36,460 nucleotides of DNA, from contig JAFDIS010000059.1 in NCBI GenBank assembly GCA_019307945.1, forward strand, positions 1-36,460, written 5' to 3'. Every line of letters begins with the position of its first letter. The first letter of the stretch is position 1. A program made the translations under genes and the position numbers. Under the pieces are notes generated by a model, which saw only the letters and a list, made by a program, of their open reading frames with translations, ran no database searches and was not told where the DNA came from. Of this stretch, positions 127 through 14,275 are shown in pieces. The DNA is from Deltaproteobacteria bacterium. Lineage in GTDB: Bacteria; Desulfobacterota; DSM-4660; Desulfatiglandales; Desulfatiglandaceae.

Positions 127-203
127 GCGCCCATAGCTCAGCTGGATAGAGTGACGGACTACGAATCCGTAGGTCGCAAGTTCGAATCTTGCTGGGCGCG
201 CCA
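127..203 (+). tRNA. tRNA-Arg (anticodon ACG)
   Basis: The 77 bases fold as a full cloverleaf: acceptor GCGCCCA pairs with TGGGCGC, D stem GCTC/GAGT, anticodon stem ACGGA/TCCGT around loop CTACGAA (anticodon ACG, Arg), T stem GCAAG/CTTGC with loop TTCGAAT, discriminator G and an encoded CCA end. The 3' 45 bases are also the attachment core of the element that follows, so part of this functional tRNA is reconstituted by the integrated DNA. Confidence 0.96.
159..203 (+). repeat. attL core, 45-bp direct repeat inside tRNA-Arg
   Basis: This segment, from the first base of the anticodon loop through the CCA end, is identical to 14231-14275. The flanking bases differ on both sides (158 a versus 14230 t; 204 a versus 14276 g), which fixes the repeat at 45 bp. 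Duplication of a tRNA 3' end beside a tyrosine recombinase gene is the classic footprint of site-specific integration. Confidence 0.95.
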
Positions 204-220
204 AATAAAATCAAACACTT

Positions 221-246
221 AGGCCACTCACAAGGTGGCCTTTTTC
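221..246 (+). terminator. Element-supplied terminator for tRNA-Arg
   Basis: AGGCCAC and GTGGCCT form a 7-bp stem with a 7-nt loop, followed by a T run. It lies 17 nt beyond the tRNA CCA end, within the integrated DNA, and replaces the original chromosomal terminator that now sits beyond attR (14285-14321). Confidence 0.8.
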
Positions 247-297
247 TTTGCCTGAGAGGCCAGGGTGCGTATAGGGTGCATTTGGGCGCAAAAAAAA

Positions 298-1434
298 TTA
301 CTTACTCACCGCTTCCGAGTTCGGGGCCGTCTTGGAATCAAGCTCATCCACCTGGGACTTGTGGGACCCCGGCATCCAGTGAGTGTATATGTCCAAGGTA
401 ATCTTTACGCTACTATGCCCTAATTGCTTGGATACGTCTAGAATGTTGTGTCCTGCTTGGATTCTCAAAGTTGCGTATGTGTGCCGAAGGTCGTGAATCC
501 GGATCTTTCGTAGACCTGCTTTTTCCAGAGCCTTATGAAACACCCGATTCCTCACGTTGTTAATGTCAATGGGGTTACCCTCACGGTTGAAAAACAGGGT
601 TTGCGGGGGTTCGCCCCATCCCTTGGTAAGCGTAATCTTTTTCCGCCTTACAAGGTAGCGCTTGAGCACTTCGGCAAGCTCGGGGGACATATCCACACGC
701 CTTGACTTACCGCTCTTGGGGGTCAACACTTCCCCCGCTGAATACGCCCGCCGAACCTCGATGAATCGCCCATTGAAATCCAGGTCGCCGGGCTCAAGGG
801 CCTTGGCCTCGCCTAATCTCATTCCTGTTCTCAGAAGGGTCAAGAAAAGGGGGTAATACCATGCGTAATGTTTTCTGAGGGTCTCTTCAAGTTTTGCCTT
901 TTCCTCCCACGTTAGGGGGTTAACGTCAAACCCGACACGCTTATTCTTGATCAACCGCCCTGTCCCCAACGCAGGGTTGGCGGTTATGATCTCATCGTCC
1001 AGGGCCTCCCGAAAGATCGCCGACAGGTAGGACTTAAGATTTCGAACCGTAGAAGGACTAATCCCCTCTGACTGCTTTCGCGTAATGAAATCCTTGATGT
1101 CGCTTCGGGTGACCTCGTCCAGGCGCTTGCTCCCGAAGTACGGCAAAATATGCTTGTCCAACGCTCCACGATATGACCGTCTCGTAGTTGGCTTATGATT
1201 CATCGCAGAGTAAGTTTTCATGAACCGCTCGGCGTATTCCTTGAACGTCGGCACTGGTTTTTTCTCCTCGAACCCGAACGTCCCCAACTGTATCCGTGCC
1301 CGGATCTCGGAAGCCACCCTTTCAGCCGCGCGCCTGTCCCCCACCTTCCTGGAGGTTCGCTTCCCGTTCTGGGATATAAAAACCCACCAAGGCTGGCCTT
1401 TTCCTCTTACCTTTTGCCTGACCGTAACGCCCAT
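298..1434 (-). CDS. int: Tyrosine recombinase / phage-type integrase
   Basis: This protein of about 378 residues catalyses integration and excision of the element. It has an N-terminal arm-binding-like region, a SAM-like core-binding domain (about residues 65-150, TFKEYAERFM onward) and a C-terminal catalytic domain. Catalytic motifs are visible: the first Arg in LLRTGMRLGEAKAL, the HDLRHTYATL box (HxxR) and the nucleophile Tyr in LGHSSVKITLDIYTHW. ATG at 1434 is preferred because GAGGGG precedes it by 5 nt; a TTG one codon upstream is also open. The gene sits 95 bp from the attL core with its 3' end facing the tRNA, the usual orientation for tRNA-targeting integrases. No separate large serine recombinase or transposase is present in the element. 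Confidence 0.96.
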   Translation of the reverse strand: MGVTVRQKVRGKGQPWWVFISQNGKRTSRKVGDRRAAERVASEIRARIQLGTFGFEEKKPVPTFKEYAERFMKTYSAMNHKPTTRRSYRGALDKHILPYFGSKRLDEVTRSDIKDFITRKQSEGISPSTVRNLKSYLSAIFREALDDEIITANPALGTGRLIKNKRVGFDVNPLTWEEKAKLEETLRKHYAWYYPLFLTLLRTGMRLGEAKALEPGDLDFNGRFIEVRRAYSAGEVLTPKSGKSRRVDMSPELAEVLKRYLVRRKKITLTKGWGEPPQTLFFNREGNPIDINNVRNRVFHKALEKAGLRKIRIHDLRHTYATLRIQAGHNILDVSKQLGHSSVKITLDIYTHWMPGSHKSQVDELDSKTAPNSEAVSK

Positions 1435-1437
1435 CAA

Positions 1438-1680
1438 AGCCCCTCGCTTTCTCCCTGGTTTTGGTTTACCCCCGGGGCAGGGTGCCAGGGTCGCACCTTT
1501 TCGGCTCCGGATGCCTAGCCCCCGGGGGCGGGGTGTGGGTCCATTTTAGACCCCAACAGGGGTTCAATCAAGACAGGACCGCCCCCTAGCGTCGCCACTA
1601 GAGGAACCTTCAGCGTTCGTTTCTTTGATTCGTGTTGTCATTGTCCTGTGGTTTGGGGATTGCTTTTCGCGTAAGCAAAT
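1438..1680. promoter_or_regulatory. Structured GC-rich intergenic region upstream of int
   Basis: This gene-free stretch separates the divergent int and ribbon-helix-helix genes. It has several small inverted repeats: GGTGC/GCACC around 1481-1497, a perfect palindrome GCCCCCGGGGGC at 1518-1529, and GGGTC/GACCC at 1537-1553. These could be recombinase or excisionase binding sites or a leader for int. No clear -35/-10 pair can be named. Confidence 0.35.
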
Positions 1681-1682
1681 GT

Positions 1683-1704
1683 TATACTATGTTAACAAAG
1701 TATA
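1683..1704. promoter_or_regulatory. 22-bp near-perfect palindrome, probable operator
   Basis: The two arms read TATACT-n-TGTT and AACA-n-AGTATA around a GTTAAC centre. 20 of 22 positions obey dyad symmetry; the only break is one A/A pair. It lies about 37 bp upstream of the ribbon-helix-helix gene and overlaps the AT-rich sequence where its promoter must be. Autoregulation by that protein is the simplest inference. Confidence 0.6.
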
Positions 1705-1741
1705 CATTCAATGTCAACCGAAAATCTTGTATCATGGAGGT

Positions 1742-1891
1742 ATGGAATTGATAGCTATTAGAATTCCCGAAGAAATGAAGAAAAAACTTGAGGTCTTGGC
1801 AAGAGAAGACCACAGGTCCCTGTCAAACCTGGTCCGTCTTATCCTGATACAGTGGCTAGAGAAGCACGAAAAAGAGAGCGAAAACAAATAA
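1742..1891 (+). CDS. Small ribbon-helix-helix (CopG/MetJ/Arc-type) protein
   Basis: A 49-residue protein beginning MELIAIRIPEEMKKKLEVLA. The pattern fits a ribbon-helix-helix DNA-binding fold: a short N-terminal beta strand (ELIAIRIP), helix A (EEMKKKLEVLAREDH) and helix B after the RSLSNLV turn. Such proteins are usually dimeric repressors or antitoxins. The GGAGG at 1736-1740 is unusually close to the ATG (1 nt), so start efficiency or the exact start is uncertain; the frame stays open upstream but the upstream residues do not look like this fold. It overlaps the following nuclease gene by 40 nt in another frame and has a palindrome upstream, which suggests an autoregulated two-gene unit. 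An antitoxin role is possible, but no matching toxin is obvious. Confidence 0.75.
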   Translation: MELIAIRIPEEMKKKLEVLAREDHRSLSNLVRLILIQWLEKHEKESENK

Positions 1892-2358
1892 GTCGGGTCT
1901 GCTGGGTCTGGCTCACGTTTGTTCTAGGGATTGAGCTCCTTTCCTCACCGACTACCGCGTGTCAGTTTAAGGTGACACGAGTCTATGACGGGGACACGGT
2001 TCTTGCCCGGGCGAACGATCTAGTCATCAAGGTTCGGTTGGTTGGGATTGACGCTCCGGAAGTGTCGCACGGAAAGCGAAAACCCGGCCAACCATACGGA
2101 AGGAAGGCGCAGAAGTTTCTCGCATCGCTTGTATTGAACAAGACGGTTGAGATTCGAGCCTATGGCCTAGACCGTTATAACCGTGTCCTCGGGGTCCTGG
2201 TATTAAACGGAAGGGACATCAACCTTGAGATGATCAAGGCGGGCCTCGCGGAAGTCTACCGGGGAAGACCGTCCAGAGGGTTCAACGCAACTCCCTACCG
2301 CGAAGCAGAGGAACACGCGAAGAAAACAAGGACCGCCAGAAACAGGAGCGTCCGTTAA
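1852..2358 (+). CDS. Exported thermonuclease (SNase-like) family nuclease
   Basis: 168 residues from a GTG start. A basic N-terminus (REARKRERK) leads into a hydrophobic stretch (VCWVWLTFVLGIELL) ending at SSPTTAC, which looks like a secretion signal, possibly with a lipobox-like Cys. The mature part matches the staphylococcal nuclease fold: VTRVYDGDTV (Ca-binding Asp), VRLVGIDAPE (catalytic Arg and Glu) and LDRYNRVLG (second catalytic Arg). It should hydrolyse DNA or RNA outside the cytoplasm. The start lies within the preceding regulator gene (40-nt overlap) and lacks a convincing Shine-Dalgarno, so translational coupling is likely and the exact start is uncertain. As cargo it could degrade extracellular or incoming DNA; this is inference. 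Confidence 0.85.
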   Translation: MAREARKRERKQISRVCWVWLTFVLGIELLSSPTTACQFKVTRVYDGDTVLARANDLVIKVRLVGIDAPEVSHGKRKPGQPYGRKAQKFLASLVLNKTVEIRAYGLDRYNRVLGVLVLNGRDINLEMIKAGLAEVYRGRPSRGFNATPYREAEEHAKKTRTARNRSVR

Positions 2359-2561
2359 CAAACTCGTGCCTTTGGAGATCAAGACTCTACACCAGATGCA
2401 CTATTCAGGCTCTTCGCAACCGAAATCGTCCAAAAATGGTTCGTTGGGAATATCTGGTGGAGAAATGGTTTGATTTGCTACGTTTGGGTCGTAGGTGACA
2501 ATCTTATCAAGATAAGAAAGGGTATCAACGACCAAGTAGGCGTTATCATTTATTTTTCTAA
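2359..2561. other. Gene-free gap between convergent genes
   Basis: About 200 bp separates the nuclease gene (plus) and the Ntn hydrolase gene (minus), which converge here. I see no coding frame or clear intrinsic terminator. Base composition falls toward the AT-rich side, in line with the Ntn hydrolase gene having a different origin. Confidence 0.3.
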
Positions 2562-3299
2562 TCATTTTCTCTTGCCTTTCTTTGCGGGCTTTTTAAAGAA
2601 GAAATCCTTCATTTTTCCGTTTTGGTCTTCATTTTTAGTAACAATGGTCATTATTTCATCCTCTTCTAGTTCTTTATATCCATTCTTTACTGTAATTTGG
2701 GCCATCCGAATAGGCCCGCCAACTTTTGGGTCTTGAGTAGCAGTTTCTTGAATCAAAAAAGCGGCTAGACTTTTGATATGGGGCAACTTCATTTCAGGGT
2801 TGTAGAACCTGTGAATTAAGTACGTTGCGTATTGAGGTACCCCGGCTAACATGTGTCCGGATGTGCACAACTGAGGTGCAAAATCCAGATTAGATGAAAG
2901 CAGATAAATTTTTTTGTTTCCGTTGCCTCGCTTACCATATCCAGCAAGAATAAAAGTCATAGTTGGCCTTTGATCAACAATTGGTTGCCCGTGGGAGACA
3001 AAAGGTTTTTCACCAAACCATTCTTGAAATGTGGATCGGGAAAATTTAAAAAACTCTTGAACAATTTCCTCTATTCCAATGACGTCCTCCCCCTCTAACC
3101 TCTTTGTGAAAGAGTAAATAAGCTGGTTGTTCAACTCAGCCGAGCCTGCGGTTGCGATCCCACAGTATTTACTCAAACTGAAAATTTTTTTATGGACATC
3201 GTTAATCGCTGTCAAACCCCTTGGGTCACCTATGGTACCACGACTATCAGATGCAAGAATCAGACCGTCTTTCCCTTCAAGGGCAGCAATTAAAGTCAT
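2562..3299 (-). CDS. Proteasome-beta/HslV-like Ntn hydrolase
   Basis: 245 residues starting M-TLIAALEGKDGLILASDSR. Removing the initiator Met would expose a Thr nucleophile, as in self-compartmentalising proteasome-type peptidases. With that Thr as residue 1, Asp falls at position 17 (ASDSR), a conserved proteasome active-site residue; Lys 36/37 (HKKIF) is the likely counterpart of the catalytic Lys 33. GIATAGSAELNNQ matches the GTAGSxAD-type signature of the fold. The length is near that of proteasome subunits. No ATPase, HslU or second subunit lies nearby, so it would act alone or as a homo-oligomer. ATG 3299 is preferred over an upstream start because it puts Thr at position 2 and follows a G-rich stretch. 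The gene is markedly AT-richer than its neighbours, suggesting separate acquisition. Substrate unknown. Confidence 0.75.
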   Translation of the reverse strand: MTLIAALEGKDGLILASDSRGTIGDPRGLTAINDVHKKIFSLSKYCGIATAGSAELNNQLIYSFTKRLEGEDVIGIEEIVQEFFKFSRSTFQEWFGEKPFVSHGQPIVDQRPTMTFILAGYGKRGNGNKKIYLLSSNLDFAPQLCTSGHMLAGVPQYATYLIHRFYNPEMKLPHIKSLAAFLIQETATQDPKVGGPIRMAQITVKNGYKELEEDEIMTIVTKNEDQNGKMKDFFFKKPAKKGKRK

Positions 3300-3344
3300 A
3301 GCGTATCCCCCCCAGAACCAAAATGAGGTAATTTGAATAAACAA

Positions 3345-3925
3345 GACAAAATAGCTGGAAGTTTCTAGAAGTTGCGCATGTTTCGTTTTTGTAGAATTTC
3401 GGTTTCCTTCTTTCCGTCTGTGCAGTAAACTTTTAGGTGTCTATTGGTTGCCTATTTGACTATGAGATATTTTGCGTGGTCCGGTTACCTGCAGTGCCTA
3501 GGTGGCGGAATTTCATTTCTTTTGATCTGTCGATATACTGACACCACTACATATCTTTTTCTCATATAAATGATTGGAATGTGAGTCAATGAAAATCATT
3601 AGGGAGCCTTAATGGGCTGTATAAGTATACCACGCAGCGATGTATAATAATAGGTTCGCGCACCGCTGAATGGGCTTGAGCGATTTTTGGAGTACCCAGG
3701 CTAAGTTCCGGTTGGGTTTCTTATCAGCAGCAGCAGAACACCCCGCTTCGTTTCTCCCGTTACGGGATTTGTTTTCTTGGGCGACTTATCCCCTCTTCCG
3801 GTGGGGGATTAGGACGCCGCCAGAAGGCTATTCAATTTTTAAAGAACTACGCGGGAACAATATCAGACCCGCCTGCCATACTTGCGCCAATAACTCTCAC
3901 GCTTTCTTGCCGCCCTCCGCCTTTT
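3345..3925. other. Long gene-poor stretch in the cargo zone
   Basis: Nearly 600 bp without a convincing gene. The first half is AT-rich and must hold the promoter of the Ntn hydrolase gene. The second half has short inverted repeats, for example ATCCCC/GGGGAT around 3788-3808, and open frames without ribosome-binding sites. It may mark a site of earlier gene gain or loss. Confidence 0.3.
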
Positions 3926-4024
3926 CTAGTTTCGCGCTTCACTGAGTTTCGTATACGAACCCCGCCGCCTGACCTCGACAACTATCTCTTCACTGCGACG
4001 CTGAAACCTGCCTATAGCAGACAT
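3926..4024 (-). CDS. Possible 32-residue basic peptide
   Basis: An ATG frame begins 10 nt after the zinc-knuckle gene stops, with a weak GGTGAT upstream. The product MSAIGRFQRRSEEIVVEVRR (first 20 residues) is strongly charged. Position at the end of the minus-strand operon and tight spacing are the only support. It matches nothing I recognise. Confidence 0.25.
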   Translation of the reverse strand: MSAIGRFQRRSEEIVVEVRRRGSYTKLSEARN

Positions 4025-4034
4025 TAGATCACCA

Positions 4035-4451
4035 TTATTCACTCGGACGTACAATCCACCTTCTCCCCGCGGCAGCCGTTTTAGTTGGCTCTATGTGGCC
4101 TTTTTCTAGCAATACGGCCACAAAAACACTCTTGTCAACAACCGATATCCGATAGGCGAACAGAGGGCACAGGATAGCTGTACACTTTGAGACCTCGCGG
4201 ACGTTCCCCGCCATGCACCAGGCGCAGAAAACACGGATCACCCGGGCTCGCTCCTTGGCGTCCTGTTTGCCTGTGCCCATTCGGTATGAATGCAATGGGC
4301 AGTCCGTAAAAGTACAATTAGAGACCTCTACATATGACCACCCAGAGCAATTAAGACACCGCTCACGGATAGCCCTGCGCCGGTTCAAGTTCACAACTGT
4401 CGTTCCGTCTTTGCTTTGTATCTCAACAATCACAACCAATGCCCAAGCCAT
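4035..4451 (-). CDS. Tandem zinc-knuckle phage-type protein
   Basis: About 138 residues with two copies of the same module, each C-x2-C-x10-C-x4-C followed by PL-x-[SA]-YR: CLNC...NCTFTDCPLHSYR and CAWC...KCTAILCPLFAYR. The second copy lies about 41 residues after the first. Single-module relatives are common as small hypothetical genes in prophages (recollection of the family, not a search); the cysteines probably bind zinc. It is the last larger gene of the minus-strand packaging-side operon. The ATG at 4451 has no good Shine-Dalgarno, so a downstream GTG could be the true start. The role is unknown; a nucleic-acid-binding regulator is the natural guess. Confidence 0.65.
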   Translation of the reverse strand: MAWALVVIVEIQSKDGTTVVNLNRRRAIRERCLNCSGWSYVEVSNCTFTDCPLHSYRMGTGKQDAKERARVIRVFCAWCMAGNVREVSKCTAILCPLFAYRISVVDKSVFVAVLLEKGHIEPTKTAAAGRRWIVRPSE

Positions 4452-4608
4452 GAAAAAAGTTTTTGGGGCTGGCAGAGGCCCCGATGGGTTGCCGCCCCAG
4501 GTCAAAGGAGATCCCGCGCTTTTCGGGGATAATGTGCATGCGGGGCGCGGGACGCTCGGAGCACACGCTTGTATGCCCGCACACACTCCCCTTTCCCATT
4601 CCCCTTGG

Positions 4609-5103
4609 TTAATCGTCGTTCGGGGGGTTGCCGTACCTCACCTCCACCTCAACCGGTTCATCGCGAAAGGAAAGGTGCGGGTTTCTTATCCTACTCTCAC
4701 GATCCTGGTGAGATGAAACCCATAAAGAATCACCCTTCGCGTTTGTTGAAGGCGTGTCGCTTTTGTCATCCAGCACACCCTTGGGTAAATCGGGATTCAT
4801 CTGCGTCAGGCTCTTTGTCCGCTTCAGGCCTTCCCTCACCCGCCGCCCGGCTTCCTTGATCCGCTCCACGCTGTATGGGTCGTTTTGGTAGTCAACGGGG
4901 ATCCGTGCCAGCTCCGCACCTATCAAGTCGCCGTGTTCGCGAAGATCAGGGTTCTTGTCGAAAAACTGGCGTTCAGTCTGTGTAAGCATTTTCTGCAAAT
5001 GCAGCGCCTCAGTCCGGTTGATCATATCCGCAAGTTGGCGGTCGAGGATCGGGTCCGGCTGATTCATCATGCCTTCTGTCTCGCTGTAACTATCATCATT
5101 CAT
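4609..5103 (-). CDS. Unrecognised acidic/polar element protein (164 aa)
   Basis: Begins MNDDSYSETEGMMNQPD and is rich in Asp, Glu, Arg and Asn, with a helical middle (DRQLADMINRTEALHLQKML) and a disordered Ser/Asp-rich tail. No signal peptide or membrane segment. The start at 5103 overlaps the preceding stop by 8 nt and has GGAG 9 nt upstream, so it is translationally coupled to the gene before it. I do not recognise a family. Its place downstream of the terminase suggests a packaging, capsid-interaction or scaffold-like role, but nothing in the sequence proves this. Confidence 0.6.
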   Translation of the reverse strand: MNDDSYSETEGMMNQPDPILDRQLADMINRTEALHLQKMLTQTERQFFDKNPDLREHGDLIGAELARIPVDYQNDPYSVERIKEAGRRVREGLKRTKSLTQMNPDLPKGVLDDKSDTPSTNAKGDSLWVSSHQDRESRIRNPHLSFRDEPVEVEVRYGNPPNDD

Positions 5104-5692
5104 CGCCTTCTTCTCCTTCCCGTTGAATCTCCTCACGCCTCAGTCTCGGTCCTTCGCGAATCATATCACGGAATTTACGCTCCTCTGATAACCTAGATCG
5201 CCGTTGCTTCGTAACCACCTCGTTCCTAAGTCCCAGGTAGTCAGTGGCTTTTTCTGCCGCAATGACAAGGTTCTCCTCGAACTTCCCGCGTGGGTTCTCT
5301 GCCTGCGCCCGCTGAAACATTGAAAACAGGACTGGCTCCTTGCCCTGGAGATGGGGGGCGTTGTTTTTAATGTACTCTGCCGCATATTCGCGATAGTATG
5401 CGCCCTTGTCTGTATCACCTTTCATGACATCCCTGTACGTGGCTGCCATGGGGCGTAATATGTTCTGTCGAAATTCCGCGTCGTCAATCAGCTCGTCCAG
5501 GTCGTCATACTCCGACCCATCATCCGACGCGATGGAGTCCAGCTCTTCCTCTGACAAGCCCGCCAGTTCAAGTTTGCGTTTGAGTTCTTCATACTTTCTG
5601 TTCTCCAGCCTCTCTTTTACGTCCCGCTCTAGTTCATCGTCCGGTACAACGCCCGAGACTTGCATGTCCGGGTGTATAATCGCATCTTCCAT
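5096..5692 (-). CDS. Unrecognised acidic helical protein (198 aa)
   Basis: Starts MEDAIIHPDMQVSGVVPDDE. Residues from about 20 to 70 are highly charged and probably coiled (ERDVKERLENRKYEELKRK, then an acidic DDGSEYDDLDELIDD run); the C-terminus is Arg/Glu-rich. The composition resembles scaffolding or head-morphogenesis accessory proteins, but no motif allows a call. GGAGG lies about 12 nt before the ATG at 5692. It overlaps the next gene by 8 nt and follows the 75-residue gene by 4 nt, so it belongs to the same transcription unit. Confidence 0.6.
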   Translation of the reverse strand: MEDAIIHPDMQVSGVVPDDELERDVKERLENRKYEELKRKLELAGLSEEELDSIASDDGSEYDDLDELIDDAEFRQNILRPMAATYRDVMKGDTDKGAYYREYAAEYIKNNAPHLQGKEPVLFSMFQRAQAENPRGKFEENLVIAAEKATDYLGLRNEVVTKQRRSRLSEERKFRDMIREGPRLRREEIQREGEEGDE

Positions 5693-5696
5693 GGTT

Positions 5697-5924
5697 TTAA
5701 TTATCCTCCGTATCCGTGGGCACCGTAGTTCGAACGTCATCCGCGCTCTTATACTCCGTAATCTTAATGCCCTTGAGATTGTTTTTCATGTTCTGACCAG
5801 CAGGTGCACGCCCAGGAAAGGGCTTTACGCCCCCCACCTTCACGGCCCCGGGAACGCCCTGGGATCCAGGTTTAACTTTCACTGCGCCACTACCTCTTTT
5901 CTTACCTTTCTTGATCATTTCCAT
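5697..5924 (-). CDS. Small basic Gly/Pro-rich protein (75 aa)
   Basis: The N-terminal half is Lys/Gly/Pro/Val-rich (MEMIKKGKKRGSGAVKVKPG) and the C-terminal half is more ordinary (ITEYKSADDVRTTVPTD). It looks intrinsically disordered and nucleic-acid-binding by composition only. The gene sits in a tight minus-strand run: 6 nt after the preceding gene and 4 nt before the next. Function unknown. Confidence 0.55.
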   Translation of the reverse strand: MEMIKKGKKRGSGAVKVKPGSQGVPGAVKVGGVKPFPGRAPAGQNMKNNLKGIKITEYKSADDVRTTVPTDTEDN

Positions 5925-5930
5925 TTGCTC

Positions 5931-6128
5931 TTACCTCCGTCTATTTTGTTTCCACCACGCCTCACCAATACTCTGAACCGGCCCAAAGTCGTCCGGGCTC
6001 ACATTCGGCGTGTTTCCTGTGTTGTATGTAAACACCTCGTCAACTCGTCTCACCTTGAAACTCGCCGCCGGTCGCCAAGACTTTGGAATCCGACAGGTCG
6101 GACTCCGGAATTCCTCATCGGCAGTCAT
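5931..6128 (-). CDS. Small unrecognised element protein (65 aa)
   Basis: Starts MTADEEFRSPTCRIPKSWRP; the C-terminus is GEAWWKQNRRR. GGAGG about 10 nt upstream selects ATG 6128 rather than an ATG cluster further upstream that would overlap the previous gene. One Cys, no clear motif. It lies in the operon between the 238-residue protein and the basic 75-residue protein. Function unknown. Confidence 0.55.
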   Translation of the reverse strand: MTADEEFRSPTCRIPKSWRPAASFKVRRVDEVFTYNTGNTPNVSPDDFGPVQSIGEAWWKQNRRR

Positions 6129-6147
6129 TTGTGATTCACCTCCTTCC

Positions 6148-6864
6148 TTAATGATATGTGTTAACTTCCGGGATCCCGCCATCATCAACTTTTGGCAACC
6201 TCAGCCTGATACCAGTCCCCGCATACGCCGCGAAAGAGAGAGCCTTCAACGCGCTCGGGTTTTGACTCAGAAGGTGACGACACTCGCTGTTGATTCGCAA
6301 TAGCCCTGATGCAATCTGAGAGCGTAACAACCCATTGAGATAATCTTCACCACCGCCCCGGCCGTTCCCTATCGGCAAGGGAAGAATCACCGGGGCTTCA
6401 ACCTCGGGGTCCCTCAACCAATTGCGGCGACGCTGCCTGCCCACGCGCCGCCGGTAAATCTCTGAAAGCAGGTTGGTAGACTCCCCCGCAAGGTCACGGT
6501 CCCCAGGGGCGCACCAGAACACAGAGACAGAGTATTTATCACTGTATTCAACAACGGCCTCCAAAAGGGAGCGGTAGTTCCGCTCAAGGTGCTCGTCCAC
6601 AACTTCGATCAGCGCGTCGTCGCTATACGTCCAGGGGCCAGGGTTGATACCACTGGTAATGCTGCGAAACGGTTCAAGGTCGGTTGGAATATCAACCCCA
6701 CCGCTTACCTCGTGCTCTGTCGGTCGGTAGGTTTCGCCTGCGATGAGAAAATAGCCTTCCGGAACACCGCGAGGAAACTCCAGGGCCCCAAAAAGCGGCC
6801 GATAATAAAGCCGATCACTCACCACCACGCGATCCGGTTGCAATTTCACTTTGACGTCAAGCAT
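6148..6864 (-). CDS. Unrecognised protein translationally coupled to terminase (238 aa)
   Basis: The ATG at 6864 overlaps the terminase stop (shared ATGCTTGA), with a G-rich Shine-Dalgarno inside the terminase gene. The N-terminus is strand-rich (LDVKVKLQPDRVVVSDRLYY), the middle has a likely alpha/beta region (ALIEVVDEHLERNYRSLLEA, YSVSVFWCAPGDRDLAGES), and a Gly-rich linker precedes a helical C-terminus. The size and place fit a partner of the packaging enzyme. A portal is normally about twice this length, so this is not a conventional portal. No family recognised. Confidence 0.65.
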   Translation of the reverse strand: MLDVKVKLQPDRVVVSDRLYYRPLFGALEFPRGVPEGYFLIAGETYRPTEHEVSGGVDIPTDLEPFRSITSGINPGPWTYSDDALIEVVDEHLERNYRSLLEAVVEYSDKYSVSVFWCAPGDRDLAGESTNLLSEIYRRRVGRQRRRNWLRDPEVEAPVILPLPIGNGRGGGEDYLNGLLRSQIASGLLRINSECRHLLSQNPSALKALSFAAYAGTGIRLRLPKVDDGGIPEVNTYH

Positions 6865-8302
6865 GACCCGCCCCCTCTTCGAAACGGAATAAATTGTCCC
6901 CCGTCAGATCCCAGAAAAACGAGTCCGTCGTCCCGCACTTGAAAGCCGCAAGGGCAATACAAACCGCAAAGTCGTCGTGACGGCCGGCAAGTCTCGCATG
7001 ACCGATTTGAATGTTTCCTGATGGGGTGACCCGGGCCTCTAAGCCCTTCAGCTCCCCAATGCTGTCGGGGTGGTCAAGAAGCTCAATGCTCCCCTCCATA
7101 ATGCGATGCTTGAGGGTTGAAAAGATTTCCCGCTTGAATCCCGTGCTAAACGGACTCTCAAGAAACGTAATCCCTCGCTCTCGAAAACCCTGCCTGACAG
7201 GTTCCGAACAATACTGATCACCGTGAACAAGGCCGCAGTGATATACTCGCAGCGTTCGGCAAATCTCATCTAACGTAGACGCCAAATTAACCGGCTCCTT
7301 CTTCGTTCCGTGCCAGGCTGAGATATAATCAAAGATGACTCGTCCGTCGTCGTCGCGGTGACAAATGCCGAATGTGAAAGCGTCGCTTTTAAATGCCACA
7401 TCCACTGCGGCCGTATAAACAAACTTGCCGTGATAAGGGAGTATCTTGCGCTCAGGAATTACACACGCATCAACAGATTCAGATGGCAAAAAATCACTGA
7501 TGGAATCGGAAAATTCCGCCAGGTATTCCCTCTTGTACGAGTCAGGGTCCCGGCGTTCTTCCTGGCGTAAAAAACTGTTCGAAACGGTCGGGTTCATCAC
7601 CTTGGTCGGCGCACGCCAGACGAGCACCGGCGCATTTGAATCTGCGTAGTAGTTCTTGAAATCCTCCCATAATACGCCCTGCTTCCAGAATGGAGTTGAG
7701 ATCTTCACCAGCTTACTATTCGCGAACGTAGCCTGCGCCGGGCGGATCGCCTCCAAGATCTGCTTGTCCACGTTCTGTCCCTCCACGCGAAGGAAAGCGG
7801 CCTCATCAACTATCGCAAGAGGGATCGAAAATCCGCGAAGCGTACGATACGAACAGGGATAAGACCCGATCACTATGTTGTTCCGGAAGTGAATCTCCTC
7901 CGCATACGTGGCTGCAACCATGCTGGATAAAAGACGCGATGATTCCACCTTGCCGCGAACGTAAGAGAGAATAAGCCCCGCCTGCTTTTTGTTTACGCTG
8001 ATAATAATTATATACGCCTTCTCCCCCATACTCAGATGCCGCTCGTGGCCGCCCTGCAACGCCTCAAACAACGCGACGTTGCTTGCAATTCGATCACTCT
8101 TGCCAGACCTACGACCGCAAATTAGCGTGGCCTCCCTGTACGGCCGCGCGTGGTACTCCTCCAACCCCGTGCACCGCTTGTAAACGTCCAGCTCACGCTT
8201 GCTGAGTTCAAGACCATAAAACGCCTTCAGGGCGGCCGTCTGCGCTATGGATAACTTTTGCCCGATCAGGTTTTTATCCCGTATGAAGTCAATAATGTTC
8301 AC
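6857..8302 (-). CDS. terL: Terminase large subunit-like packaging ATPase/nuclease
   Basis: 481 residues from a GTG start. The N-terminal ATPase has Walker A at LICGRRSGKSDRIA (about residue 63) and Walker B at IPLAIVDEAAF (about residue 166), followed by a coupling motif region (VKISTPFWKQG). The C-terminal RNase H-like nuclease shows its acidic residues in AAVDVAFKSDAFTF, GLVHGDQYCSEPV and LAGRHDDFAVCIALA. Length and domain order are those of phage large terminases, which translocate DNA into proheads and cut it. The upstream gene looks like a small terminase. The protein is complete and shows no disabling change at visible motifs, which argues for selection. With no capsid or portal in the element it would need a helper phage or the neighbouring unknown proteins. 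Confidence 0.9.
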   Translation of the reverse strand: MNIIDFIRDKNLIGQKLSIAQTAALKAFYGLELSKRELDVYKRCTGLEEYHARPYREATLICGRRSGKSDRIASNVALFEALQGGHERHLSMGEKAYIIIISVNKKQAGLILSYVRGKVESSRLLSSMVAATYAEEIHFRNNIVIGSYPCSYRTLRGFSIPLAIVDEAAFLRVEGQNVDKQILEAIRPAQATFANSKLVKISTPFWKQGVLWEDFKNYYADSNAPVLVWRAPTKVMNPTVSNSFLRQEERRDPDSYKREYLAEFSDSISDFLPSESVDACVIPERKILPYHGKFVYTAAVDVAFKSDAFTFGICHRDDDGRVIFDYISAWHGTKKEPVNLASTLDEICRTLRVYHCGLVHGDQYCSEPVRQGFRERGITFLESPFSTGFKREIFSTLKHRIMEGSIELLDHPDSIGELKGLEARVTPSGNIQIGHARLAGRHDDFAVCIALAAFKCGTTDSFFWDLTGDNLFRFEEGAGHA

Positions 8303-8790: not shown

Positions 8791-9393
8791 TCATTCCTCG
8801 CCATCCTCCGGGGCCGTGGCGTCGTCACACGCACACACACAGGGCCTTTGTGAACACTCGGAACACCCACACCCGGGAACCGCACCCGATCCGTCTTTGT
8901 TCGCACAGGCTTTGCCTGAAGGAGCAACCTCAACGTCAATAGGTCCCGCGTCCTTCTCCTGCGCCTTGTCGCGTTTTGCAGGCTTCAGGCTCGCAATGTA
9001 CTTTTCGTAATCAATGCCCTGTGGGTCTGCTTGCTTGCCTAAATCCTGCAGGGCACGGAGGTTGAGACGTAGACTATTACTCCAGGCCAAATACTCCCTT
9101 CCCAATGCGGGAAGCAATGAGCCCTCCTTGGTGACGATGCTCTTCTGCCTCAACGCCCACTCGGCCATGCGAGATAGCACCGCGATTTGTTCGCAAACAT
9201 GGTCTAAGAGAATACCTTGAGACGTGTTTGGCCGTCCGCCCATGTCTTCCAACAACCCCCTGCGAGCCTCGGTGACGTATTTGCCCGTTCTGGTTCGTAA
9301 ATCAATCCAGGATTCTCCCCGGGCGATCGCCTTTACGAGGGCTTTCCCGCCGTGTTTTTGACGGTTATGCCGAACTTCTCTTTCCCTTTTCAT
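8791..9393 (-). CDS. terS: Probable terminase small subunit (P27-like)
   Basis: 200 residues beginning MKREREVRHNRQKHGGKALV. The central helical region (DHVCEQIAVLSRMAEWALRQ ... LGREYLAWSNSLRLNLRALQ) resembles the P27-type small terminase pattern of a tandem helical block with SLLPALGREYLAW; this is a pattern judgement, not a database match. The C-terminus is Cys-rich (CGCSECSQRPCVCAC), a possible metal knot not usual for the family. ATG 9393 is preferred over GTG 9423 because its first base is the last base of the upstream stop (TGATG) with GAGG 8 nt upstream. Small terminases recognise pac/cos DNA and would determine what this element packages. Confidence 0.55.
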   Translation of the reverse strand: MKREREVRHNRQKHGGKALVKAIARGESWIDLRTRTGKYVTEARRGLLEDMGGRPNTSQGILLDHVCEQIAVLSRMAEWALRQKSIVTKEGSLLPALGREYLAWSNSLRLNLRALQDLGKQADPQGIDYEKYIASLKPAKRDKAQEKDAGPIDVEVAPSGKACANKDGSGAVPGCGCSECSQRPCVCACDDATAPEDGEE

Positions 9394-9593
9394 CACATGA
9401 ACCTCAAGTTTTGCTCGATCCACTCGTCTAGCTCATGTCTATCCAACCAAATCTTTGACCTAGGCCCCCGCTGAATACACCGTAACTCCTGTTGGTACAG
9501 GAGCTCGCGCACGCTATCGACAGACCGACCCAGGTACACGGCGGCTTCCTTTAAAGTCAACAACCTCGGACGCACTCCATTTTTCTTGTCCAA
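9393..9593 (-). CDS. AlpA/excisionase-type HTH regulator 1
   Basis: 66 residues from a TTG start chosen because GGAGG lies 6 nt before it; the GTG at 9611 lies upstream of that site. The core LLTLKEAAVYLGRSVDSVREL ... WLDRHELDEWIEQN is the winged helix-turn-helix of excisionase/AlpA-like proteins (Helix_turn_helix_17 type). Such proteins bend DNA for excision or activate satellite late genes, as P4-like AlpA does. It directly precedes the small terminase gene (TGATG overlap), so it may be its activator or simply co-expressed. Confidence 0.75.
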   Translation of the reverse strand: MDKKNGVRPRLLTLKEAAVYLGRSVDSVRELLYQQELRCIQRGPRSKIWLDRHELDEWIEQNLRFM

Positions 9594-9688
9594 TTTGCAC
9601 CTCCCCGGCACCCAAATACCGTGTCCGTTTTATTTCTGCTGTTATTTTAGCCTGTTACCTTGCCTGACCTTCGGACTGATGATCCGAT

Positions 9689-9934
9689 TTAGCCCTTCAG
9701 GGCGTCCATTACCTCATCTACAATGCCGTTGATATCCTGCCTGGTTGTGATCCTAAAGTTTTCCACCCAAGCGTCAAATTCATCTTTTCTGACCAGAATT
9801 TTCCCATCCAGCTTGAAGGCGGGAAGACTTCCGCGGTTGATGTATCCACGGAGACTCGACACGGACAGGCTTGCATACTCAGCAAGCTTTCTCAGGTCTA
9901 GATATCCGTCCGTCTGCCTTCTTCCGCCTTTCAT
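9689..9934 (-). CDS. AlpA/excisionase-type HTH regulator 2
   Basis: 81 residues beginning MKGGRRQTDGYLDLRKLAEY. The segment LRKLAEYASLSVSSLRGYINRG-LPAFKLDGKILVRKDEFDAWV is a clear winged helix-turn-helix of the excisionase class: recognition helix around SVSSLRGYI, wing KLDGKILVR. The C-terminal TRQDINGIVDEVMDALKG adds a short helix. It lies between the iteron region and the terminase module with a palindrome (9973-9988) about 40 bp upstream, and is the best candidate for the switch controlling excision or packaging genes. Confidence 0.8.
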   Translation of the reverse strand: MKGGRRQTDGYLDLRKLAEYASLSVSSLRGYINRGSLPAFKLDGKILVRKDEFDAWVENFRITTRQDINGIVDEVMDALKG

Positions 9935-9972
9935 GGTTTAATTGATCCACCCCCTAACACGAGGAATACTGC

Positions 9973-9988
9973 GTACGTTAAAACGTAC
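9973..9988. promoter_or_regulatory. 16-bp inverted repeat upstream of HTH regulator 2
   Basis: Arms GTACGTT and AACGTAC are separated by AA. It lies about 40 bp upstream of the regulator start, in the expected promoter zone, so it is a likely operator, perhaps autoregulatory. Confidence 0.5.
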
Positions 9989-9989
9989 C

Positions 9990-10258
9990 TCAAAGCGCAC
10001 AACCTATTCTCACCACCTCAACCCTTCCTGGATCACAATGCATTGTAACCATTGAGAATCTTTTGCCTCTCTGTGCCATTGACAGGCTGCTAGACCAATG
10101 TTTTCCGCCTTCCCGCAAGCGCCAGGGGAATGCTGGGTTTTGGCGGTATTTCTCGTCCCAAATTCTTTCAGTTGCATTCCCTGGCAACGCCGCGCCCCCT
10201 CTTGGGAGAGAACGCGAAAGGGGAGAGACGCCCAGCACCCGCCGCACCGTGAATTTGT
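9990..10258. other. Non-coding region between regulator and origin
   Basis: Frames here run on into the iterons and look spurious. The segment includes a perfect 12-bp palindrome, ACAATGCATTGT, at 10035-10046, a possible second operator. No RNA gene recognised. Confidence 0.3.
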
Positions 10259-10263
10259 AAACC

Positions 10264-10292
10264 TGTAAACTGTAGACCTGTAGACTGTAAAC
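10264..10292. repeat. Four tandem TGTARAC heptamers
   Basis: TGTAAAC, TGTAGAC, TGTAGAC and TGTAAAC occur at 10264, 10271, 10279 and 10286. They directly abut the outermost iterons and form a second repeat family, possibly another protein-binding site of the origin. Confidence 0.55.
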
Positions 10293-10300
10293 AAGTCCCC

Positions 10301-10579
10301 GTCCCATATGCGTCCCATGTGTGTCCCATATAGCCAAGTCTGTAAGTACTTGAAATCATTGGTCCCGTCCCATCAGTCCTATATGTCCCATCAATTTTTG
10401 AATTCGTCAGAAATTTGTATAAAGAGAGCCTTGTTATGCTGTTGTTTTTGTAGTTCTGAAATTTCTGACGTATAAACATATGGGACATATGGGACATATG
10501 GGACATGGTCAGTAATTTCAACAAGTTAGCCCCTTCGGTTGATGGGACATGATATGGGACTTGATGGGACATATGGGAC
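10301..10579. other. Putative replication origin: divergent iteron arrays flanking an inverted repeat
   Basis: The 9-mer ATATGGGAC and its variants TGATGGGAC and ACATGGGAC occur about 13 times. Left of centre all copies point left: 10301, 10312 and 10323 (11-bp period), then 10367, 10376 and 10385 (9-bp period), with a partial copy at 10362. Right of centre all point right: 10478, 10487 and 10496 (9-bp period), then 10540, 10552, 10562 and 10571. Between them lies an AT-rich core bounded by a perfect 12-bp inverted repeat, CGTCAGAAATTT (10405-10416) and AAATTTCTGACG (10459-10470). The primase-helicase gene ends 8 bp to the right. Iteron clusters flanking an AT-rich unwinding segment next to the replication gene are the known plan of PICI/SaPI origins. 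Origin function is inference but well supported. Confidence 0.8.
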
Positions 10580-10586
10580 ATGGTCG

Positions 10587-12785
10587 TCATTTTTCCTCCC
10601 AGTCGATTTTCAAGCCGATATGGCCCTCGAAAGCCGCCCGACATTGTTCTAGGTCAGGGATTTCATATCCCCACTTTCTCACGTCGCCGATGACCGGCCG
10701 GCCCCTTTTCACGCCCGCGGGCCAAAGGGTTTTCAACTCGCGAATGAACACTTTATTGGTTAAGGGATGCCGATTTTTCACCGTTTCGCAAAATTCTATG
10801 TAGCGGTTATACAATTCGTCCGTGGGGATCCACTCACCGAAGATTTCCCCGTCGCCGTCCGTTAATGCCTCAACCCAAAATTTCCCGACAGTCCCCATTG
10901 TGCGCAAAACTTGATCAACGAGAGCGTCCGTCTTGGGGAAGTTGTTGGGGTCAAAGCCCGTGAGGTCATAATTCTGAAGCAGGTGGAGAAGGGCACCCAC
11001 GCCGTCGTTCGACATTTCGTCGAAAATGGCCTTGAAATATTGACGGTTCCCCACTTTTTCGCCGCTCACGTCGATCACGCAAAACCGACGTTCCAGAGGT
11101 CCGGCAGGCACAACCCAATTGTTATTCGACGCAATGATAAAATTTGCGTGGTTGCGAACCTGAAACAGGTCTTTACCTTTAAGTTCAATATTGACCACGT
11201 CCTCGGTGATAAGACCCTTCAGCACGCCTTCCGCCTGCTTATCCCCAGCCCAAAACCCCTCGTCGACGTACACAAGGAGCGCGTCTTTCAAGGCACTATT
11301 GAACCGGCCGACCACATGGTTTTGATTTGTCACGTGGATAAAATGCTTCCCGAATATCCGGCCGAAGCCCTGAACGAAACAGCCCTTGCCTGCCCCTCGC
11401 GGTCCCCGAAGGACAAGTGCGACTTCACTGCGTCGTTTTCCCAGGTGCTGGACCTTCCAAGCCATCCACTCAACAACGTACTTAAACAGCTCTTCATTCC
11501 TCCGGGCGATTACATCATGAATGTGGCACAGATATTTTTCACACCTGCCCTTCGCGTCCGGTTTGACTGCCAGGCCCCTGAATAGGTTGTAGGCCCCAGA
11601 GATTTCTTTTCGCGAAGGCTCGAACACCAGCCCGTTTTCGTATGTGCGCCTGTGTTTATTTTCAATCCACAGCTTGGCCACGGGGGCGGGCTCGGTAACT
11701 ATCTCCCCGTTTCTCTCCTTTTCAACAGGGATCTTTCTGTTGGCGTATCGCGTCTTGAAGTCGGCAACGGTCGATAAGGTGATATCAGGCCGACCATGGA
11801 TCGGGTCTGCAATTTCATTGAGAATACAGCATCGGCCGCCAACCATGACCACGGCATGCTTGGAGTTAAGCTCCTCGATTGCTTTTTCGACGGCGTCCTT
11901 TTTCTTTTGCGTTTTTGGCTTGGGATTTCTCACTGTTTCTGCAAGGTTCTTTACTACCGCATTCGCCCCTTCTAAGATGGCCAGATCGTTGAAGTCTGTT
12001 GGGCGCGTGTCCGTGTTTTTAAACCTCGGCACGGCCAACTGTCCATCCACCGCCCACGCCGCTTCACGGGCCGCAGCCAAACCCGGATTGCCTTCCGTCC
12101 ACTGGTCGTTGTCAGCACAAATCGTGATTTCCGCCTCGGGGTGCTTCTCGCGCACAACCTGTGCAACAGATTTTAGATTGCCCGCGCTGAATGCTACATA
12201 GATTGTGCCACCCGTGGACTTGCGAATAGTTAGGCCCGTAGCAAACCCTTCACAAACGAATATTCCGCCCGCCTCGTCACCCAGAATCCTAAAGAAATTT
12301 CCGGAGACCTTTGAGCCCGCAAGAAACTTTTTCTCACCACTAGCCGAAATTCGCTGGATTCCCGTGATATCCCCTTTTGCATTAGTGACAGGCACAAGTA
12401 GCGTCGCGTTTAGCTGCTTCAGCCCGGGGCAGGGTTCCACCTTCTTGGTTAGTAAATATGGATGGTCTTTACAGGCAGGTTTTGCCCGCTGTAAAATCGC
12501 CTGAAAATCCTTGGTCGGTTTTTGGATATTATTGGTATGCTTGACCTTCGCCACACCCTGACCGCTGCCACCCTCAAAAAACAAATCTGCCAAGGTCAAC
12601 TCCATGGCCTTGGTAACCTCCCACGGCGTACACCCGGCGAAGCAATTGAGAAGGATCCTCCCATCTGCGCCCGTGCCGATCGACAAACTGGCATTGTGAT
12701 CGTCATGCGCGGGGCATCGAGCAACCCAGCCCGTTCCCGATCTTCTTACGCCATCCAGCCGTGCTAAAAATTCCCCAATATCCAC
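10587..12785 (-). CDS. Primase-helicase (zinc-Toprim primase fused to SF3/D5-like helicase)
   Basis: 732 residues from GTG, the replication protein of the element. Residues about 20-55 hold a CHC2-like zinc site (CPAHDDH ... CFAGC). A Toprim primase follows (about 140-260): the Glu in FVCEGFATGL and the acidic pair in ICADND. The C-terminal half is a D5/SF3-type ATPase: Walker A LRGPRGAGKG (about residue 465), Walker B LLVYVDEGFWAG, and an ASNNNWVVPAG sensor-like segment. The architecture is that of P4-alpha-like and phage/plasmid primases that both prime and unwind. It lies next to the iteron array, so origin recognition by this protein or a partner is likely. A strong terminator 30 nt upstream of the start suggests its expression is gated. 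Confidence 0.92.
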   Translation of the reverse strand: MDIGEFLARLDGVRRSGTGWVARCPAHDDHNASLSIGTGADGRILLNCFAGCTPWEVTKAMELTLADLFFEGGSGQGVAKVKHTNNIQKPTKDFQAILQRAKPACKDHPYLLTKKVEPCPGLKQLNATLLVPVTNAKGDITGIQRISASGEKKFLAGSKVSGNFFRILGDEAGGIFVCEGFATGLTIRKSTGGTIYVAFSAGNLKSVAQVVREKHPEAEITICADNDQWTEGNPGLAAAREAAWAVDGQLAVPRFKNTDTRPTDFNDLAILEGANAVVKNLAETVRNPKPKTQKKKDAVEKAIEELNSKHAVVMVGGRCCILNEIADPIHGRPDITLSTVADFKTRYANRKIPVEKERNGEIVTEPAPVAKLWIENKHRRTYENGLVFEPSRKEISGAYNLFRGLAVKPDAKGRCEKYLCHIHDVIARRNEELFKYVVEWMAWKVQHLGKRRSEVALVLRGPRGAGKGCFVQGFGRIFGKHFIHVTNQNHVVGRFNSALKDALLVYVDEGFWAGDKQAEGVLKGLITEDVVNIELKGKDLFQVRNHANFIIASNNNWVVPAGPLERRFCVIDVSGEKVGNRQYFKAIFDEMSNDGVGALLHLLQNYDLTGFDPNNFPKTDALVDQVLRTMGTVGKFWVEALTDGDGEIFGEWIPTDELYNRYIEFCETVKNRHPLTNKVFIRELKTLWPAGVKRGRPVIGDVRKWGYEIPDLEQCRAAFEGHIGLKIDWEEK

Positions 12786-12814
12786 CGACGTTCGGCTCCT
12801 TCATTTCTTTGCAC

Positions 12815-12858
12815 AAAAAAAGCCGAAAATAACTGCCTAAAGCAATTATGTTTCGGCT
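12815..12858 (-). terminator. Intrinsic terminator 30 nt upstream of the primase gene
   Basis: On the minus strand AGCCGAAA pairs with TTTCGGCT, and inside it ATAATTGC pairs with GCAGTTAT (one G-T pair); seven T residues follow. No promoter is evident between it and the primase GTG, so it looks like an attenuator rather than a simple operon end. A further palindrome, GAGTTTT-T-AAAACTC, lies just upstream at 12864-12878. Confidence 0.75.
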
Positions 12859-12903
12859 GGCTTGAGTTTTTAAAACTCTGGCTTGCCTTGACTAAATATT
12901 AAC

Positions 12904-13107
12904 TTACCGTGTTACTTCTAGCTGGTTCTCAATATGTTTATTCATTAAAATTTTACCAGCTTTGGTTTGTTTGATAATATATTTTCTCCCGCTGTATTGA
13001 TCGATCAAAACCAACGGATATTGTGCCACGGTGATTTCGCAAACCCCGTCAAAGATATTAAATCCAGTTTGTATGGTTTTAGCTAGTTTTGTGGTATTAT
13101 TTTGCAT
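12904..13107 (-). CDS. Small unrecognised protein (67 aa)
   Basis: Begins MQNNTTKLAKTIQTGFNIFD; the rest (EITVAQYPLVLIDQYSGRKYIIKQTKAGKI in part) suggests a small beta-rich fold. GGGGAAAG immediately precedes ATG 13107. It overlaps the end of the upstream HTH gene by 11 nt, so it is co-translated. AT-richer than the HTH gene. Its stop is followed by the attenuator-like hairpins before the primase gene, so it could take part in that control; this is speculation. Confidence 0.6.
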   Translation of the reverse strand: MQNNTTKLAKTIQTGFNIFDGVCEITVAQYPLVLIDQYSGRKYIIKQTKAGKILMNKHIENQLEVTR

Positions 13108-13879
13108 TCTTTCCCCATTTTCCTTTGTTTACAAACTTTACGTGCCACTTTTCAGCGTCATAGACAGCCTCCCGGGCCAGGCCCGCCACCGCTTCAAGAT
13201 GGTCCCGCGCGGCGATGAAATCCCCACGCTCGATTTTTCCCGACTCCCAAAGTCTCACAAGGTGTCCTAACGCTTCTGAGCACCGATTTTCTATCGCGGC
13301 CCTGCGCTCCCACGCCTCCCACTTCACTTTAGCTTCGGGGGTGGCGTGCGGACCTACCGAATTGCTTTTCACCCAGGTCAGGAGAGCATCCACTTCGGCC
13401 CACAATGCTTCCTTTTCCGGGGTGGGTTTCAGGAGGTCTTGGTCGCGCTCGATTTGGAAACGGAAGAACACCTCCGCCCGCAGGTCAGCGCGGTATCCGG
13501 CGATTTCCCGGAAAATGACCCGCGCCGCCTCAGGCCCCAAGCGCTTTATGCGGTCAAGCGTCCAAGTAACGACCTGTGGCGCGAATCTCGCGGAAAACTC
13601 GGCCTTGAAATTCTCGATGTCTTTTTGAACGGATTTCTGATTTTTCCACCGCCAGACCGTGGCCGCATCCACGCCGAGAAGAGCAGCAACTTCTTTTTGG
13701 GAAATTGCAATTTCACCGCCATTTATCGATTGAAGCAGAGCGAAAACCCGCCGTCGGCGGGCGGGCCTCCCCAAAGAACTTTCCTCGGTTTGGTCGGCCA
13801 AAGCTCTGACGAACCCCCGGAGCATTGGGCGGTTCCTCCGCGGATCGATTGCGTTCGCTAGTTGGACTGAATTCGTCAT
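13097..13879 (-). CDS. HTH protein, TerS-like DNA-binding domain, first gene of the element operon
   Basis: 260 residues. A helix-turn-helix at about 58-85 (ISQKEVAALLGVDAATVWRW) followed by a helical stretch (TWTLDRIKRLGPEAARVIFR) recalls the DNA-binding half of phBC6A51-type small terminases. The C-terminal 150 residues are helical, with WEAWERRAAIENRCSEALGH and AARDHLEAVAGLAREAV. It may be a second small-terminase homologue that redirects packaging, an origin-binding protein or a master regulator. It is the promoter-proximal gene of the minus-strand operon, with -35 and -10 boxes about 30-60 bp upstream, and overlaps the next gene by 11 nt. Confidence 0.65.
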   Translation of the reverse strand: MTNSVQLANAIDPRRNRPMLRGFVRALADQTEESSLGRPARRRRVFALLQSINGGEIAISQKEVAALLGVDAATVWRWKNQKSVQKDIENFKAEFSARFAPQVVTWTLDRIKRLGPEAARVIFREIAGYRADLRAEVFFRFQIERDQDLLKPTPEKEALWAEVDALLTWVKSNSVGPHATPEAKVKWEAWERRAAIENRCSEALGHLVRLWESGKIERGDFIAARDHLEAVAGLAREAVYDAEKWHVKFVNKGKWGKNAK

Positions 13880-13909
13880 AAGGCGTTCCTATTTCCTATG
13901 GTGTGCTCT

Positions 13910-13939
13910 AGAATACATTAAAATGCAAGCATTTGTCAA
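13910..13939 (-). promoter_or_regulatory. Sigma-70-type promoter of the minus-strand element operon
   Basis: On the minus strand a perfect TTGACA (-35, 13934-13939) is separated by 18 nt from TATTCT (-10, 13910-13915). It points at the HTH gene 13879. An inverted repeat TGCAAGC (13924-13930) and GCTTGCA (13956-13962) straddles the -35 box, a fitting operator for a repressor. Confidence 0.75.
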
Positions 13940-13962
13940 GTACTTTTTTTGAAAAGCTTGCA

Positions 13963-14230
13963 AAAATATCTCTACCTGTTGGTCTCTCGTCCTCGCCAAA
14001 CAGGGCGTCAAGAAGTACCCAAAATTTTGAAGTTCCTAGGCATCGAGCCGCATTTTTCAGTGATTTTTCAGTGTGTTAAAAACAAAAAAACCCCCACCAG
14101 AAAACGTCTGGCGGGGGTCAAAAACTGGGTGCAGGGAGGGTGCAAACCGCGCGTTTATTTTGTCAAGATCTGCTGCATTCTAATAACCCAACCCTTCTAA
14201 ATTATTGATATTGTTGATTTAATGGTACGT
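13963..14230. other. attR-proximal non-coding arm of the element
   Basis: No gene is visible. The segment holds two copies of TTTTTCAGTG with 11-bp spacing (14053-14062, 14064-14073), which could be integrase arm-type sites, and the hairpin at 14084-14121. The final 60 bp before attR are AT-rich. Confidence 0.45.
14084..14121 (-). terminator. Strong terminator at the right end of the element
   Basis: On the minus strand CCCCCGCCAGA pairs with TCTGGTGGGGG (one C/T-type mismatch) around a short loop and is followed by seven T residues. It faces transcription entering from the chromosomal minus-strand genes at 14397-16392 and so insulates the element from read-through. Confidence 0.75.
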
Positions 14231-14275
14231 CTACGAATCCGTAGGTCGCAAGTTCGAATCTTGCTGGGCGCGCCA
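14231..14275 (+). repeat. attR core, 45-bp copy of tRNA-Arg 3' end
   Basis: Exact copy of 159-203. Only the tRNA portion from the anticodon loop to CCA is present, so this copy is not a functional tRNA. Confidence 0.95.

Follow-up and report, generated by a model that had tools for sequence, protein, structure and literature searches.

The stretch of DNA analysed here (the window: 36,460 nucleotides, contig JAFDIS010000059.1 of assembly GCA_019307945.1, from a deltaproteobacterium of the Desulfatiglandaceae) carries at 159-14275 a discrete, tRNA-bounded element of 14.1 kb that combines integration, regulation and replication genes with genes for a small-terminase-like protein (TerS) and a large terminase subunit (TerL). 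These boundaries and this gene set are confirmed. A 45-bp sequence from the 3′ end of tRNA-Arg stands at both ends of the element as two exact copies spaced 14,072 bp apart, the tRNA-Arg(ACG) gene itself begins after the first 126 bp of the window, and the G+C content is about 45-57% within the element versus mostly at least 58% outside. The principal features are:

127..203, plus strand: tRNA-Arg (ACG), the integration target, whose 3′ part is attL (ARAGORN, repeat analysis)
159..203, plus strand: attL, 45-bp core, an exact repeat equal to the last 45 bp of tRNA-Arg(ACG)
298..1437, minus strand: tyrosine integrase, beside the tRNA (phrog_1 1.1e-77; PF00589 1.1e-27)
6857..8302, minus strand: TerL, large terminase subunit with intact motifs (phrog_2 1e-23; alignment; tree)
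8791..9423, minus strand: TerS-like protein (family of 103 rows, E 2.7e-22; HK97 TerS among the best structural matches)
9393..9611, minus strand: HTH_17 (AlpA-like) regulator 1 (PF12728 1.2e-9)
9689..9934, minus strand: HTH_17 (AlpA-like) regulator 2 (PF12728 2.3e-10)
10383..10581, no strand: iteron array (ATGGGACAT), putative replication origin (seven exact copies; repeats D3 and I1)
10587..12785, minus strand: Toprim primase fused to a DUF5906 helicase (PF13362, Toprim_3, 1e-11; PF19263 2.9e-23)
13097..13879, minus strand: helix-turn-helix (HTH) protein, a regulator or second TerS-like candidate (weak HTH and TerS matches, TerS 0.003)
14231..14275, plus strand: attR, 45-bp core, an exact repeat, 45/45 identical to attL

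A preliminary description of this DNA had named an integrase, a primase-helicase, an iteron origin and two AlpA-type regulators. The integrase is borne out by both PHROG and Pfam, and the primase-helicase by its Toprim_3 and DUF5906 domains; viral contigs probed with this primase yielded 24 relatives with partial matches. The iterons are likewise present as seven exact copies of ATGGGACAT, six of them inside 10480-10581, their role as an origin being putative. The two regulators match HTH_17 and neither matches PF05930 in Pfam, so that the label "AlpA-type" rests on HTH_17, a family accepted as AlpA in the published model of phage-inducible chromosomal minimalist islands (PICMIs; PMC10803314).

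The large terminase had been called apparently intact, and the comparison with relatives agrees. Walker A (GRRSGKS), Walker B (VDEA), the nuclease aspartate positions and the GDQ/HDD motifs all align, alongside the PHROG match given above; the Pfam family TerL_ATPase scored only 0.0044, under the cut-off. The protein is far removed from the TerL of cultured phages: against 50,697 phage records, the best matches listed share 21-27% identity with it, and for the TerL of two related elements the cultured-phage matches listed cover part of the protein with an identity of no more than about 30%. When single TerL sequences were used to scan viral and genome collections, no matches came up. Relatives were gathered by a phylum-wide genome search and by alignment queries: 395 genomes of the phylum contained six relatives with 32-39% identity over most of the protein, plus a seventh genome at 30%, and a search of genome contigs with a TerL alignment returned 105 relatives, 80 of whose loci were analysed. 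In all, TerL relatives occur in about 100 genomes of several phyla. The TerL of related elements is under purifying selection, with dN/dS of about 0.04-0.24 in pairs with unsaturated dS, some of which are not delimited by att sites.

A small-terminase-like gene had also been proposed, and 8791-9423 is a better candidate for it than 13097-13879, whose TerS match is weak. The protein encoded at 8791-9423 joins, at 2.7e-22, a family of about 100 members that sits directly upstream of TerL; here about 490 bp lie between the gene and TerL, whereas at most loci the two genes adjoin or share about 4 bases. When 75 members of the family were scanned, two PHROG families were matched, weakly and by one member each, and both are annotated "terminase small subunit". 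In a structural comparison of the AlphaFold model (predicted local distance difference test, pLDDT, 74), HK97 TerS takes ranks 2 and 3 with Z 8.1, which is low for a helical bundle, and a Foldseek search of the model gave no match at 0.001 (E >0.9). The predicted likeness to HK97 TerS is thus suggestive, lying within the chance range of helical bundles.

Relatives are found in Desulfobaccales, Syntrophobacterales and other deltaproteobacteria, Gammaproteobacteria, Nitrospira, Aminicenantes, Acidobacteria and Planctomycetota, as well as in alphaproteobacteria (Methylobacterium, Mesorhizobium, Acetobacter, Sphingomonas and others). By seeking repeats of tRNA sequence on both sides of TerL, 35 elements (that of the window included) could be delimited, with sizes of 8.2-18.3 kb and a median of 12.4 kb. 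The repeats measure at least 33 bp in 28 of them and 22-25 bp in two; the remaining five, of 14-19 bp, are weak. Nearly all 35 carry an integrase and TerS, and clustering of the neighbours at 122 loci showed a TerS-like gene adjoining TerL at 95 loci, an integrase at 67 and primases on the upstream side. One relative, L053, is a 15.0-kb portal-less element at tRNA-Leu that has a TerS-family gene, an HTH_17 regulator and a Zn-finger-like gene in common with the window; its three small genes after TerL correspond to those of the window in position only. In many elements the gene after TerL encodes a protein of about 190-270 aa that looks like a coiled coil (e.g., L123 11543-12304, L148 11512-12240, L103 6926-7636). 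The element is a member of a group of small elements that is widespread and, it appears, undescribed, and whose DNA is probably packed into particles made by other viruses.

As the preliminary description had stated, virion genes are not recognisable: no portal, capsid, protease, tail or lysis family matched any window open reading frame (ORF) tested against PHROG and Pfam. A similar picture emerges from the relatives. Fifty-five large ORFs of the genome elements matched 11 Pfam families in all, none of them a portal; capsid families occurred in four ORFs, tape measure and minor tail in a few, and there were one or two matches each to DUF2213, S78 and MuF. The 25 commonest PHROG families listed include, in addition, tail fibres, a protein of the tail collar and an internal virion protein. 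At genome loci without clear att sites, no portal stands among the 25 commonest Pfam families listed, where weak single matches could escape. Viral contigs with a related TerL, by comparison, gave 10 Phage_portal_3, three Phage_portal and one SU10_portal matches in Pfam, and a profile built from five viral-contig portal proteins, searched against a reduced set, matched 11 viral contigs and none of the genome loci. Since portals were found on viral contigs by the same method, the method detects them where they are present; very divergent portals in the genome elements may nevertheless exist.

Satellites with their own large terminase and no portal had been thought uncommon. Within this group they are the rule, with the qualification that some relatives add one or two virion proteins, namely a capsid, a tape measure or a tail fibre. 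An HK97-type capsid gene without a detectable portal is present in L140 (11515-12648), L171 (12382-13488), L166 (7316-8488) and L056 (4807-6066), and in three sphingomonad elements TerL is followed by a gene for a tail-fibre-like protein of about 650-720 aa (L160 13423-15576, L169 12739-14706, L174 13076-15226). Tape measures of 423-1303 aa occur in other related elements.

Two further observations concern the mobility of these elements. Genome G174 contains two of them, one near tRNA-Arg and one near tRNA-Lys, which have in common a 5.8-kb TerS-TerL module of 98.8% identity (L059 9171-14965, L060 9097-14891) beside integrase and primase regions that do not align; the packaging module therefore seems to move as a cassette. 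In the viral collection, the metagenomic contigs L071 (9,819 bp) and L073 (9,398 bp) each end in the sequence with which they begin, over 114 and 60 bp respectively; closed into circles of 9.7 and 9.3 kb, they are collinear and match each other at 82-95%. Both encode an integrase, a replication gene, TerL and a tape measure, with no portal seen; L073 also has a gp10-like tail gene, recognised by eye. Their circular assembly fits an excised or a concatemeric form and is not proof of packaging.

Portal-bearing contigs also lie within the wider TerL clade (e.g., L082, L085-L089, L091, L092, L097), which means that TerL has been exchanged between phages and elements without a portal. The partner of the window in the TerL tree is L061 (SH-aLRT 98), with L053 close by, though long branches leave the joins of the window with both unsure. 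L061 is a viral contig of 6.6 kb in which an SU10-type portal lies downstream of TerL. The preliminary description would have been refuted by relatives of the element with a full virion module, and this applies in a weak form only: the sister has a portal, but its TerL is about 34% identical to that of the window and no further detected gene is in common.

The remaining genes of the element are:

1625..1891, plus strand: CopG-type ribbon-helix-helix protein (PF01402 1.4e-6)
1852..2358, plus strand: staphylococcal-nuclease-like protein, cargo (PF00565 2e-25)
2562..3344, minus strand: proteasome-subunit-like (Ntn-hydrolase) protein, cargo (PF00227 1.4e-6)
4035..4586, minus strand: Zn-finger-like protein, kept in L053 and L056, start codon uncertain (hhalign L053 1e-10; phmmer 3.8e-9 and 4.2e-7)
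4609..5136, minus strand: 175-aa ORFan (no family at 0.01; no homologue in the relatives' loci examined)
5096..5740, minus strand: 214-aa acidic ORFan (weak match to phrog_15988, virion structural, 0.045; no homologue in the relatives' loci examined)
5697..5924, minus strand: 75-aa ORFan (no family match at 0.01)
5931..6188, minus strand: 85-aa ORFan (no family match at 0.01)
6148..6864, minus strand: 238-aa ORFan directly after TerL (no family match; model pLDDT 37)
12904..13107, minus strand: 67-aa ORF (no family match)

The nuclease homologue at 1852-2358 follows the ribbon-helix-helix gene and lies on the other strand from the core genes, and the proteasome-subunit-like protein at 2562-3344 has no homologue among the relatives' loci examined. 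The ORF at 4035-4586, which lies outside the five unknown genes pointed out earlier, is probably a real gene. The 238-aa ORFan is the positional counterpart of a 231-aa gene in L053 (28% in a two-row alignment, profile match not significant). A by-eye pattern had suggested that it is a second RNase H (terminase nuclease) domain; this was rejected, as a profile comparison with the TerL alignment was unsupportive and the model is of low confidence. The 238-, 214- and 175-aa proteins were also rejected as homologues of the three post-TerL genes of L053, being alike in position and size with no significant profile match.

Taken together, we consider the element to be a phage satellite whose own TerS and TerL load its DNA into the procapsids of a helper, at a probability of roughly three in four. 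The proposal of a satellite lineage with a large terminase and without a virion module is thereby supported, on the strength of portal-less, tRNA-integrated relatives of similar size and with the same core. In the life cycle envisaged, an incoming helper phage would trigger excision by the integrase and an AlpA-like factor, and the primase-helicase would replicate the excised circle from the iterons. The element's TerS would then mark its own DNA, and its TerL would dock on the portal of helper procapsids and fill them, so that packaging would be diverted by replacing the whole terminase and not TerS alone. More speculatively, the small post-TerL genes may fit TerL to the portal of the helper or change the way in which heads are assembled. 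The helper is taken as incoming; the host genome, searched for the portal family PF04860 and the capsid family PF05065 and for no further families of either kind, contained neither. As a guess only, L061 points to phages whose portal is of the SU10 type as helpers. The lone capsid, tape-measure or tail-fibre genes of some elements suggest that these also reshape the helper particle. The group as a whole may form a large cross-phylum class of satellites that supply a complete terminase for the helper portal and whose sub-lineages add no more than one or two virion proteins (capsid, tape measure or tail fibre), by which the particle would be reshaped or retargeted; the chances for and against this proposal are evenly balanced.

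Several points weigh against the satellite interpretation. Helper dependence and packaging of the element are predicted rather than observed. No close copy of 159-14275 and no empty tRNA-Arg site turned up in the data, where the element stands alone; the flanking 392-aa protein, the marker for such a site, is absent in the other 45 genomes of the family. The nearest TerL in the tree, that of L061, is accompanied by a portal, and a divergent head protein is possible among the small ORFans, in which no fold was recognised.

The first alternative, a remnant of a tailed prophage that has lost its virion module and retained TerS and TerL as leftovers, is unlikely. The portal downstream of TerL in L061 and the lack of a known copy elsewhere speak in its favour, but the ORFs and both att sites are intact, the TerL of related elements is under purifying selection and relatives occur as circular contigs. 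Moreover, the same compact portal-less core recurs in more than 30 independently placed elements from several phyla. With portal-less, tRNA-integrated relatives of similar size and with the same core, the element is therefore not simply a deleted prophage. It is still less probable that the element is a minimal virus or a capsid-forming satellite with a divergent portal and capsid among the ORFans at 4609-6864. None of these five ORFs matches a family at 0.01, one weakly resembles a virion-structural family (0.045) and some relatives do carry a capsid gene; the largest ORFan, however, has 238 aa, less than known portals and HK97-type capsids, and the neighbourhood of TerL in relatives holds no recurrent, conserved gene of portal size. 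Least probable of the three is an integrative element whose TerS and TerL now serve concatemer processing, maintenance or defence, for although no helper or particle is known and the cultured-phage TerL matches listed stand at 21-30% identity, the ATPase and nuclease motifs are both kept, and the capsid, tape-measure or tail-fibre genes added by related elements make sense mainly with virions.

The element has the general features of a satellite, i.e., att sites, an integrase, a regulator and replication genes, with no complete set of virion genes recognisable. VEIMEs (virion-encapsidated integrative mobile elements) and tycheposons resemble it as small satellites that carry an integrase, depend on tailed phages and often occupy tRNA genes. 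Virus Rctr16k (KX853514), a partial 16.7-kb record, resembles it in having an integrase, a terminase (23% identity) and few virion genes, and differs by a tail tape-measure gene and by what seems, judged by eye, to be a head protease; it was deposited as a partial tailed phage. With PICMIs the element has in common the integrase, HTH_17/AlpA and DUF5906 primase that form the core of the published model, as well as the lack of capsid genes.[PMC10803314] PICMIs, for which AlpA-dependent excision has been shown, are however smaller and located next to fis, and a terminase is unmentioned in that work, whereas the present element lies at tRNA-Arg with TerS and TerL.[PMC10803314] Capsid-forming phage-inducible chromosomal islands (cf-PICIs) are also chromosomal satellites with an integrase, a regulator, replication genes and their own TerS and TerL, all of which are present here; they have genes for capsid, protease, portal and head-tail connectors and borrow tails alone,[PMC10690885] while the element has no detectable capsid, protease, portal or connectors and the group has no portal. 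PICIs of the SaPI (Staphylococcus aureus pathogenicity island) type likewise divert packaging with a terminase subunit, but supply TerS only or modulate the helper TerS,[PMC10690885] and the element adds a motif-intact TerL. Known satellites rely on the terminase of the helper, contribute TerS or a modulator of TerS, or carry a complete head module that includes a portal.[PMC10690885] To supply TerS and TerL without a portal is a different solution. No description of TerL-bearing, portal-less satellites was found in the literature, mostly outside subscription papers, and the novelty is accordingly provisional.

TerL and portal are usually taken as a matched pair. If the interpretation is true, a group of satellites that keeps TerL and never a portal would mean that a foreign motor can run on the portal of another virus, and motor-portal specificity would become testable with natural pairs. 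A class of satellites would also be added where few have been described, in Desulfobacterota, Alphaproteobacteria, Nitrospirota and Acidobacteriota. The presence of an integrase, TerS and TerL no more than about 15 kb from a tRNA, with no portal, offers a simple signature by which to search for such elements, many of which may currently be filed as defective prophages.

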